A DNA stretch of 64,000 nt, from the NCBI RefSeq assembly GCF_964204645.1, contig NC_134026.1, forward strand, positions 7,575,450 through 7,639,449, written 5' to 3'. Of this stretch, positions 28,701 through 34,700 are shown piece by piece. The stretch's first letter is position 1. Every line of letters begins with the position of its first letter. Both the position numbers and the translations under genes were made by a program. Under the pieces are notes generated by a model that was not told where the DNA came from, ran no database searches, and saw only the letters and a program-made list of their open reading frames with translations. The DNA is from Tubulanus polymorphus. Its lineage: Eukaryota; Nemertea; Palaeonemertea; Tubulaniformes; Tubulanidae.

Positions 28701-31700
28701 ACCCCGATTAATGAACCTGTCATCGAGGACCTACCTCAATGCCTGGGTATACCTCAAATAATTATAGAGTTATAATCGATGACATATAGACCTACCTACC
28801 TCAATGCCTGGGTATACCTCAAATAATTATAGAGTTATAATCGATGACATATAGACCTACCTACCTCAATGCCTGGGTATACCTCAAATAATTATAGAGT
28901 TATAATCGATGACATATAGACCTACCTACCTCAATGCCTGGGTATACCTCAAATAATTATAGAGTTATAATCGATGACATATAGATCTACCTACCTCAAT
29001 GCCTGGGCATACCTCAAATAGTTATAGAGTTATAATCGATGACATATAGATCTACCTACCTCAATGCCTGGGTATACCTCAAATAGTTATAGAGTTATAA
29101 TCGATGACATATAGACCTACCTACCTCAATGCTTGGGCATACCTCAAATAGTTATAGAGTTATAATCGATGACATATAGATCTACCTACCTCAATGCCTG
29201 GGCATACCTCAAATAGTTATAGAGTTATAATCGATGACATATAGATCTACCTACCCCAATGCCTGGGTATACCTCAAATAATTATAGAGTTATAATCGAT
29301 GACATATAGACCTACCTACCTCAATGCCTGGGTATACCTCAAATAGTTATAGAGTTATAATCGATGACATATAGACCTACCTACCTCAATGCCTGGGTAT
29401 ACCTCAAATAGTTATAGAGTTATAATCGATGACATATAGACCTACCTACCTCAATGCCTGGGTATACCTCAAATAATTATAGAGTTATAATCGATGACAT
29501 ATAGATCTACCTACCTCAATGCCTGGGTATACCTCAAATAATTATAGAGTTATAATCGATGACATATAGATCTACCTACCTCAATGCCTGGGTATACCTC
29601 AAATAGTTATAGAGTTATAATCGATGACATATAGATCTACCTACCTCAATGCCTGGGTATACCTCAAATAGTTATAGAGTTATAATCGATGACATATAGA
29701 CCTACCTACCTCAATGCCTGGGTATACCTCAAATAGTTATAGAGTTATAATCGATGACATATAGACCTACCTACCTCAATGCCTGGGTATACCTCAAATA
29801 GTTATAGAGTTATAATCGATGACATATAGATCTACCTACCTCAATGCTTGGGCATACCTCGAATAGTTATAGAGTTATAATCGATGACATATAGACCTAC
29901 CTACCTCAATGCCTGGGTATACCTCAAATAATTATAGAGTTATAATCGATGACATATAGATCTACCTACCTCAATGCCTGGGTATACCTCAAATAGTTAT
30001 AGAGTTATAATCGATGACATATAGACCTACCTACCTCAATGCCTGGGTATACCTCAAATAGTTATAGAGTTATAATCGATGACATATAGACCTACATACC
30101 TCAATGCTTGGGCATACCTCAAATAGTTATAGAGTTATAATCGATGACATATAGATCTACCTACCTCAATGCCTGGGTATACCTCAAATAGTTATAGAGT
30201 TATAATCGATGACATATAGACCTACCTACCTCAATGCTTGGGCATACCTCAAATAGTTATAGAGTTATAATCGATGACATATAGATCTACCTACCTCAAT
30301 GCTTGGGCATACCTCAAATAGTTATAGAGTTATAATCGATGACATATAGATCTACCTACCTCAATGCTTGGGCATACCTCAAATAGTTATAGAGTTATAA
30401 TCGATGACATATAGATCTACCTACCTCAATGCCTGGGCATACCTCAAATAGTTATAGAGTTATAATCGATGACATATAGATCTACCTACCTCAATGCCTG
30501 GGCATACCTCAAATAGTTATAGAGTTATAATCGATGACATATAGATCTACCTACCTCAATGCTTGGGCATACCTCAAATAGTTATAGAGTTATAATCGAT
30601 GACATATAGATCTACCTACCTCAATGCCTGGGCATACCTCAAATAGTTATAGAGTTATAATCGATGACATATAGATCTACCTACCTCAATGCCTGGGCAT
30701 ACCTCAAATAGTTATAGAGTTATAATCGATGACATATAGACCTACCTACCTCAATGCCTGGGTATACCTCAAATAATTATAGAGTTATAATCGATGACAT
30801 ATAGATCTACCTACCTCAATGCCTGGGCATACCTCAAATAGTTATAGAGTTATAATCGATGACATATAGACCTACCTACCTCAATGCCTGGGTATACCTC
30901 AAATAATTATAGAGTTATAATCGATGACATATAGACCTACCTACCTCAATGCCTGGGTATACCTCAAATAGTTATAGAGTTATAATCGATGACATATAGA
31001 TCTACCTACCTCAATGCCTGGGTATACCTCAAATAGTTATAGAGTTATAATCGATGACATATAGACCTACCTACCTCAATGCCTGGGTATACCTCAAATA
31101 GTTATAGAGTTATAATCGATGACATATAGACCTACCTACCTCAATGCCTGGGTATACCTCAAATAGTTATAGAGTTATAATCGATGACATATAGATCTAC
31201 CTACCTCAATGCCTGGGTATACCTCAAATAGTTATAGAGTTATAATCGATGACATATATAGACCTACCTACCTCAATGCCTGGGTATACCTCAAATAATT
31301 ATAGAGTTATAATCGATGACATATAGACCTACCTACCTCAATGCCTGGGTATACCTCAAATAATTATAGAGTTATAATCGATGACATATAGACCTACCTA
31401 CCTCAATGCCTGGGCATACCTCAAATAGTTATAGAGTTATAATCGATGACATATAGACCTACCTACCTCAATGCCTGGGTATACCTCAAATAGTTATAGA
31501 GTTATAATCGATGACATATAGACCTACCTACCTCAATGCCTGGGTATACCTCAAATAGTTATAGAGTTATAATCGATGACATATAGATCTACCTACCTCA
31601 ATGCCTGGGTATACCTCAAATAGTTATAGAGTTATAATCGATGACATATATAGACCTACCTACCTCAATGCCTGGGTATACCTCAAATAATTATAGAGTT

Positions 31701-34700
31701 ATAATCGATGACATATAGACCTACCTACCTCAATGCCTGGGCATACCTCAAATAGTTATAGAGTTATAATCGATGAAATATAGACCTACATACCTCAATG
31801 CCTGGGTATACCTCAAATAGTTATAGAGTTATAATCGATGACATATAGACCTACCTACCCCAATGCCTGGGTATACCTCAAATAATTATAGAGTTATAAT
31901 CGATGACATATAGACCTACCTACCTCAATGCCTGGGCATACCTCAAATAATTAAAGAGTTATAATCGATGACATATAGACCTACCTACCTCAATGCCTGG
32001 GTATACCTCAAATAATTATAGAGTTATAATCGATGACATATAGATCTACCTACCTCAATGCCTGGGTATACCTCAAATAATTATAGAGTTATAATCGATG
32101 ACATATAGACCTACCTACCTCAATGCCTGGGTATACCTCAAATAATTATAGAGTTATAATCGATGACATATAGACCTACCTACCTCAATGCCTGGGTATA
32201 CCTCAAATAATTATAGAGTTATAATCGATGACATATAGACCTACCTACCTCAATGCCTGGGTATACCTCAAATAGTTATAGAGTTATAATCGATGACATA
32301 TAGACCTACCTACCTCAATGCCTGGGTATACCTCAAATAGTTATAGAGTTATAATCGATGACATATAGACCTACCTACCCCAATGCCTGGGTATACCTCA
32401 AATAATTATAGAGTTATAATCGATGACATATAGACCTACATACCTCAATGCCTGGGCATACCTCAAATAGTTATAGAGTTATAATCGATGACATATAGAC
32501 CTACCTACCTCAATGCCTGGGTATACCTCAAATAATTATAGAGTTATAATCGATGACATATAGACCTACATACCTCAATGCCTGGGTATACCTCAAATAG
32601 TTATAGAGTTATAATCGATGACATATAGATCTACCTACCTCAATGCCTGGGTATACCTCAAATAGTTATAGAGTTATAATCGATGACATATATAGATCTA
32701 CCTACCTCAATGCCTGGGTATACCTCAAATAGTTATAGAGTTATAATCGATGACATATAGATCTACCTACCTCAATGCCTGGGTATACCTCAAATAGTTA
32801 TAGAGTTATAATCGATGACATATATAGATCTACCTACCTCAATGCCTGGGTATACCTCAAATAGTTATAGAGTTATAATCGATGACATATAGATCTACCT
32901 ACCTCAATGCCGGGGTTCCTTTCGCAAATTCAGCTCGAACGGTGAGTTTCTGATTTAAAGCAGTTGTTATAGGAACACCATCCTCGCAAAGATTTATGAC
33001 AGGCGTAAATAATTGTGACCATTTTAATCCTCCGAATCTTTGATGCGCTTCATACATGCCCTTAATCTCACCCGGTATAGCTATAGCCGTTCCACCTACG
33101 ATAAGAGAAAATGCTCTTTAAATTTCAACTACGACGATATTTTGACTTTCGTTGGAAAAGGTTATTCGTGCGGATATAGAAAGCTGATGAAGTAAGTATT
33201 AAGTAGTGCTGCCATGGCAACGATATTTGCTTATACTGTATCTATATTCTGCCAACAGATAAAAAAATAAATTGGTTACGATGTAAAAGATGTTAGCAGA
33301 GCGTAGTTTCGATCTACGGACCTCTGGGTTATGGGCCCAGCACGCTTCCACTGCGCCACTCTGCTGGTGTCATGTCACTCACCGTAATAATGACTAGATT
33401 TGTGAGAATAGTCTGTACGATTCACTGCATTTGGCGCTGTTTCACGCGAATCAATGGTGAAGATTTCTTTTGTTTGCCTAAAAGACGATAAAATGTAGCA
33501 TTTCACGTCGACTAAAGCCAGGTTACGGACCAGAAATAACTCATTTTCAACTGTGCATAAAAATCCACTGGATAACATGTTCGTTTTTATATGTGGACAG
33601 TGGAACCTCGTTGAAAGGAACCTTGTGGGTCAAAATTGACACGGGTTTCGTGTTATCCAAATCTTGATTAATATGAACATCTTAGCTGGGACATGCTGGA
33701 ATTCATCGCAATTCACGGGTTTCGTCTTAAACAGGGTCGTATTAACGAGGTTTAACTGTATCGTGTTAAATTTGATAATTGTCTGCGTAACCTCAAGACA
33801 AATCACAAATGATCACGACTTAGATCACACACTGGTCAAAAGAAATTTTAGTGAAAATATTCATTTTCTTACATAACGATATATAATATGATATGATTTC
33901 ATCAATATTATTACCATAATTTCTAAAATGTAGCATTTCACGTCGACTAAAGCCAGGTTACGGACCAGAAATGACTCATTTTCAACTGTGCATAAAAATC
34001 CACTGGATAACAGTTTCGTTTTTGTATGTGGACAGTGGAACCTCGTTGAAAGGAACCTTGTGGGTCAAAATTGACACGGGTTTTGTATTATCCAAATCTT
34101 GATTAATATGAACATCTTAGCTGGGACATGCTGGAAATCATCGCAATTCACGGGTTTCGTCTTAAACAGGGTCGTATTAACGAGGTATAACTGTATCGTG
34201 TTAAATTTGATAATTGTCTGCGTAACCTCAAGACAAATCACAAATGATCACGACTTAGATCACACACTGGTCAAAAGAAATTATAGTGAAAATATTCATT
34301 TTCTTACATAACGATATATAATATGATATGATTTCATCAATATTATTACCATAATTTCTTTGGATCAAGTCTATGTCCAAAATTGCTTTTCTTAAAACGT
34401 TCAAAGGTTATACATAATAGTTATAATGATAATTATAACATCATGTTTAACTGAAATACTATTGGAATACTAAGAACAGTAACAACATGGATTTATAATA
34501 GATAAAATAATTTTTTGTGGCAGTTTCCTTACCTTTTATAGATGACCATAAACATACCACCTCCAATACCAGAACTGTGGGGATGAGTTACCCCGTTACA
34601 CAGTAGAGTAGTGATAGCGGCGTCAACAGCTGTTGCTCCCGGCGTCTTCAGTATATCACTAACAACAAAAATACATAAAAATACATAAAATACATACTCA

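Follow-up and report, generated by a model that had tools for sequence, protein, structure and literature searches.

A 65-bp minisatellite in a gamma-glutamyltranspeptidase gene of Tubulanus polymorphus contains copies of an exon end and its splice donor and most likely arose at the locus

Introduction

Minisatellites, or variable number tandem repeats (VNTRs), consist of head-to-tail units of about 10–100 bp that show high identity and are found at a single locus, with copy numbers that vary among individuals. A VNTR in intron 18 of human ABCA7 has a unit of 25 bp and alleles of up to 10,678 bp; it starts at the exon 18 donor, whose GT forms its first two bases (PMC5954066; this and the following systems are described according to excerpts of the papers cited). 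It was shown that usage of the donor one unit downstream amounts to 2 ± 1% independent of VNTR length, and that skipping of the next exon, exon 19, rises with it (PMC5954066). For ATP2A1 and for the fission yeast 24-bp repeats, splice signals are supplied by tandem duplication of a segment bearing AGGT (PMC4974935), and tandem donors located four nucleotides apart (A5E delta-4) can yield out-of-frame products (PMC2423196). Minisatellites in earthworm metallothionein lie within the first intron, and the excerpt mentions no junction in the unit (PMC12783039). A literature search of titles and abstract starts, with most subscription journals outside its scope, found no splice-donor-spanning array besides that of ABCA7.

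Here, we describe an array in GGT A, one of two gamma-glutamyltranspeptidase (GGT) genes in a window of 64,000 nucleotides from Tubulanus polymorphus (all positions are those of the window). As in ABCA7, which is a close precedent, the minisatellite begins at the splice donor region of an exon. In contrast to ABCA7, the GGT A unit is 65 bp long, extends 14 nt into coding sequence and in most cases also contains an acceptor-like CCCAG^G (^ marks the splice position); moreover, usage of a donor one unit downstream was seen in ABCA7 (PMC5954066), whereas the GGT A array is known from the sequence of one assembly. The rare decoy usage in ABCA7 leads to the prediction that decoy donors of the GGT A array would likewise be used at a low level. 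The tandem duplication of a segment bearing AGGT resembles ATP2A1 and the fission yeast repeats, but the GGT A intron predates the duplication and was enlarged by it, not created (PMC4974935). The native site GTAG^GTAG has the same form as the A5E delta-4 sites, unlike which the tandem pair in GGT A recurs along an array (PMC2423196).

Results

The GGT A gene and the native junction

The gene model was built from the in-frame GT-AG pairs with the highest score between exon cores, the second-best candidate being chosen by judgement for the introns 26352-25866 (GGT A) and 51051-50930 (GGT B). The joined exon cores of GGT A match the Pfam family G_glu_transpept (Gamma-glutamyltranspeptidase) with E 3e-122, and the coding sequence is apparently intact across 11 exon cores, which fits working splicing. 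The features of the focal region are as follows, exon numbers being those of the earlier note on this DNA, which was made from the sequence alone.

33095..32903, minus strand: GGT A exon (exon 6), 193 nt, phase 1 in and phase 2 out; in-frame gene model
32894..32905, minus strand: native donor site GAG^GTAGGTAGA, with the intron beginning at 32902; gene model and donor score
28729..32916, minus strand: 65-bp minisatellite array with 64 array junction copies; Tandem Repeats Finder and unit parsing
28729..28748, minus strand: 3' array edge with the final, partial copy ACCCAGGCATTGAGGTAGGT, followed by the remaining intron; sequence and unit parsing
28389..28728, minus strand: intron remainder, 340 nt; a query covering it matched itself only
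28225..28388, minus strand: next GGT A exon (exon 7), 164 nt, acceptor TTTGGTAG^T; gene model

According to this model the focal intron (32902-28389) is a phase 2 intron of 4,514 nt, 92% of which (4,174/4,514 nt) is array and 340 nt other sequence. The last 14 nt of the exon are ACCCCGGCATTGAG and the intron begins with GTAGGTAG. Of two listed in-frame candidates, only the native donor has a positive score. Another donor motif, TAG^GTAGAT, follows 4 nt downstream, i.e., GTAGGTAG at 32902 contains a second GT four bases after the first, as in a delta-4 tandem donor.

As separate observations on the gene, a tRNA-Met(CAT) lies at 33294-33365 on the minus strand, in the same orientation as GGT A and inside the 287-nt intron that directly precedes its focal exon, and a further tRNA-Met at 36366-36437 on the plus strand. 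The previous large GGT A intron contains a two-copy 435-bp tandem duplication (97%; 33489-34359), which ends about 11 nt before the acceptor of its intron (exon start 33477) and is thus a second tandem duplication adjoining a GGT A splice site.

Structure and variation of the array

The earlier note had described an array carrying copies of the exon end and the donor, and the analysis bears this out. Tandem Repeats Finder reports a tandem array at 28729-32916 with a period of 65, 64.3 copies and 97% matches; together with the one locus found in the one assembly this corresponds to a minisatellite. In minus-strand sense the array starts 14 nt within the exon. By unit parsing each unit, ACCCAGGCATTGAG^GTAGGTAG, consists of 14 nt exon-like and 51 nt intron-like sequence, and the exon end has 13 of its 14 bases in common with the unit (counted by eye). 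Parsing from each GCATTG[A/G]GGTA[G/T]GT gave the native junction and 64 array copies of it, 65 in all; 60 of the 64 intervals between them measure 65 bp and the other four 67 bp. The native donor therefore lies within an intronic VNTR that overlaps it, accompanied by 57 exact and seven variant copies. The 17-mer GGCATTGAGGTAGGTAG, which was thought to recur in every unit, occurs 51 times including the native copy, i.e., in 50 of the 64 array copies. A second GAGGTA site per unit had also been proposed; this is true for the looser motif GAGGTATRCC, which occurs 64 times, but not for the exact sequence TTGAGGTATACC, which is found only 46 times.

The units fall into 16 haplotypes defined by nine variable positions and a 2-bp indel, and across all pairs they differ by 3.0% on average, the indel counting as one difference. 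Adjacent units are more alike (1.65 differences at lag 1) than in shuffled arrays (1.98, sd 0.11; 13 of 5000 shuffles were as low), which fits local duplication. Blocks of four units recur (units 19-22 equal 25-28 and units 27-30 equal 48-51, counted without a chance control), as is expected for block duplication.

The unit at a single locus

If the satellite had been inserted or had spread from elsewhere, overwriting the exon end and donating the splice donor, the near identity of unit and exon end would be accounted for, and copies at other loci, away from the GGT genes, were named in the earlier note as evidence for such an insertion. The genome was searched for these copies and none were found. 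A 121-base query, in a search that skips very common words, gave 64 genome matches, all within the array; exact matches to a 23-base junction pattern numbered 57 and lay without exception in the array or at its native edge. A 23-base spacer-core pattern with up to two mismatches matched 64 times, always in the array, and the reversed controls of both patterns gave 0. This absence holds for the assembly searched, in which gaps or masked stretches are possible. Copies at other loci, as for a dispersed satellite, a transposon or an introner, were thus not found, and insertion of a foreign satellite was rejected; together with the paralog evidence described below, we consider it very improbable.

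As for the 45-nt spacer, no source of it was found; its longest exact match elsewhere in the window is 12 nt, which by a rough estimate is chance level. An inverted origin from the right flank was also considered and rejected, the 9-nt match within the first 60 nt of that flank being weak (12 of 1000 shuffles reach at least 9).

GGT paralogs and the direction of change

A search for the GGT family listed 44 exon matches, which were grouped by position into seven genes, i.e., GGT A, GGT B, C66, C5, C2 at 8.29 Mb, C2 at 23.4 Mb and C8; distant members were possibly missed. A phase-2 intron interrupts six of these seven genes at the focal position (boundaries set by eye), with lengths of 4514, 81, 106, 277, 161 and 150 nt, i.e., 81-277 nt in the five genes other than GGT A. 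The seventh (L011, G000 C8:12607000-12608400) lacks it and reads through as ...NPTLAKHYIRD. The presence of the intron in six of the seven genes shows that it is older than the array. Intron gain by tandem duplication presupposes a gene without the intron beforehand, which does not apply here, and a recent gain was rejected as five paralogs have the intron at the same position and in the same phase. This shared position and phase also speaks against an inserted satellite as the source of the junction.

The base in which exon and unit differ is informative on direction. By-eye alignment of the residues before the junction in the seven genes gave TPAL, NTYL, NPYM, DPIS, SPAL, NPSF and NPTL; the codon concerned encodes proline in six of them, including the GGT A exon (CCG), and threonine in GGT B. 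In the array the same codon reads CAG in 57 of 64 copies and CAA in seven, so that all 64 units show a C-to-A change that the exon lacks. With proline in six of seven genes and the changed base in the array, the exon is ancestral and the array derived; that the array derives from the exon, and not the reverse, is thus well supported by these comparisons, in which age and ancestral state are judged from paralogs of one genome. An inserted satellite is at odds with the absence of the C-to-A change from the exon, and likewise with the Pro-Ala-Leu of the GGT A exon being also present in the paralog at C2:8.29 Mb. The earlier note expected relatives to have GGCATTGAG at the exon end. Tested on paralogs, none of the five exon ends shown contains it as DNA, but one codes for the same Pro-Ala-Leu. 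The suggested origin by a tandem duplication spanning the junction is supported by the single locus of the unit, the intron common to the five paralogs and the differing exon base in a conserved proline codon.

Decoy splice sites

Splice sites were scored with a donor matrix from 23 donors (19 of the other GGT A and GGT B introns and four paralog junctions) and an acceptor matrix from 19 acceptors; both are small and partly circular, as the 19 donors and 19 acceptors had been chosen with a generic consensus. The native donor scores 8.31. Its nine bases, GAG^GTAGGT, are identical in 57 of the 64 array copies; four copies carry GAG^GTATGT (9.59) and three GGG^GTAGGT (5.57). With this small matrix, 61 of the 64 donors in the array equal or exceed the native score, in agreement with the dozens of decoy 5' splice sites postulated earlier. 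Sites of at least native strength have a density of 13.7 per kb in the focal intron vs. 0.24 per kb in the other 19 introns of GGT A and GGT B (2 sites in 8,227 bases).

Each unit contains a second donor-like site, GAG^GTATAC in 46 copies (4.17) and GAG^GTATGC in 18 (7.68). Furthermore, there are 57 acceptor-like CCCAG^G sites with scores of 6.5–6.6; the native acceptor scores 7.08, a value that the acceptor matrix gives to no AG of the focal intron. Conceivably, the array is spliced out stepwise, with the AG^GT motifs of the units (e.g., TTTGAG^GTATAC) serving as ratchet points. The 64 occurrences of GAGGTATRCC would regenerate a donor without residue, and the CCCAG^G acceptors come close to the native one (6.5–6.6 vs. 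7.1). Nevertheless, the TTTGAG acceptors are weak, with scores of 1.6 and 3.2 and no pyrimidine tract, and splicing to CCCAG and then from the next donor would leave 8 nt and lead to a stop, which makes such a recursive removal highly improbable.

RNA structure was also considered as a means of hiding the decoys. In the one 713-nt segment folded, the native donor had a predicted accessibility of 0.34 and was slightly less accessible than five GTAGGT decoys (0.38–0.48), and two GTATGT variants were more paired (0.11). The native site thus gains no support from predicted structure, which gives it no advantage over most of these decoys.

Consequences for the reading frame

The reading frame across the junction continues as ...TPALR followed by TAG at intron bases 2-4. 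Retention of the intron or usage of a downstream array donor therefore ends the protein at the junction, before the TSTIN segment, which we take to be catalytic. Judged from the frame, a working GGT isoform would not be possible from any downstream array donor because of this TAG, and the effect of the array on GGT A output would be at most a decrease. This narrows the roles suggested in the earlier note, which considered altered splicing efficiency, cryptic exons derived from the repeat and a variable-length regulator. Pseudo-exons of 8, 73, 138 and 203 nt made from units all stop two codons beyond the junction codon, and skipping of the 164-nt next exon shifts the frame.

These observations would allow the array to act as a length-dependent dampener, its copy number setting GGT A output via decoy donors, pseudo-exons or skipping of the next exon, followed by decay. 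Such a role is favored by the 61 of 64 array donors equalling or exceeding the native donor in score, by the TAG that any intron extension meets immediately, by the frame shift on loss of the 164-nt exon, by a native donor predicted to be no more accessible than five co-folded GTAGGT decoys, and by the increase of exon 19 skipping with VNTR length in ABCA7 (PMC5954066). Against it, the decoy-donor event itself stays constant over VNTR length in ABCA7 (PMC5954066). We consider this role unlikely, although GGT output may depend on array length. It is likewise quite doubtful that the array, as a junction repeat derived from coding sequence, forms a rheostat in which shifts of the copy number by unequal exchange set how many transcripts run into an immediate stop and hence the enzyme dose. 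With TAG at intron bases 2-4, stray splicing should only cost product.

Other features of the window

The window contains several further features. A 154-bp repeat with 3.9 copies (48439-49043) lies inside a 1,899-nt GGT B intron, and three similar receptor-like open frames (38347-39297, 40815-41774 and 43210-44157; rhodopsin-type GPCR by eye) are located between GGT A and GGT B. On the plus strand, two long open frames similar to each other (60944-62065 and 62916-63872) resemble small-molecule methyltransferases by eye.

Discussion

The most likely explanation, to which we assign a probability of roughly 0.75, is a duplication spanning the junction that expanded locally to about 64 copies, the array being neutral or mildly costly and removed as a whole by splicing. 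Both array edges have 20 nt in common, ACCC[C/A]GGCATTGAGGTAGGT, suggesting that the founding duplication was no shorter than these 20 nt and that its copies were about 45 nt apart. A segment over the exon end and the donor of GGT A (at least 20 nt, 14 from the exon and 6 from the intron) would thus have been duplicated in tandem with about 45 nt more, and the 65-bp unit would then have grown locally by slippage or unequal exchange. The exon copy would have been held constant by its coding role, while the array copies drifted to the 16 haplotypes. Normally, the spliceosome would join the first donor to the distant acceptor and excise the array completely; a decoy donor or a pseudo-exon derived from the repeat is probably used in a small fraction of transcripts, resulting in an early stop and loss of the transcript. 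The array is therefore most likely a minisatellite born at the locus and tolerated since the first donor is still the one spliced, and its function is most likely none or a small cost.

With GGT A, a splice junction as part of a minisatellite is shown in a gene other than ABCA7. The case represents a natural test of how the spliceosome chooses among 65 near-identical donors. As the copies match the native junction in 13 of 14 bases upstream and in tens of bases downstream, a correct choice cannot be accounted for by the strength of the donor alone. Should splicing prove accurate at the GGT A junction, position and exon definition must decide.
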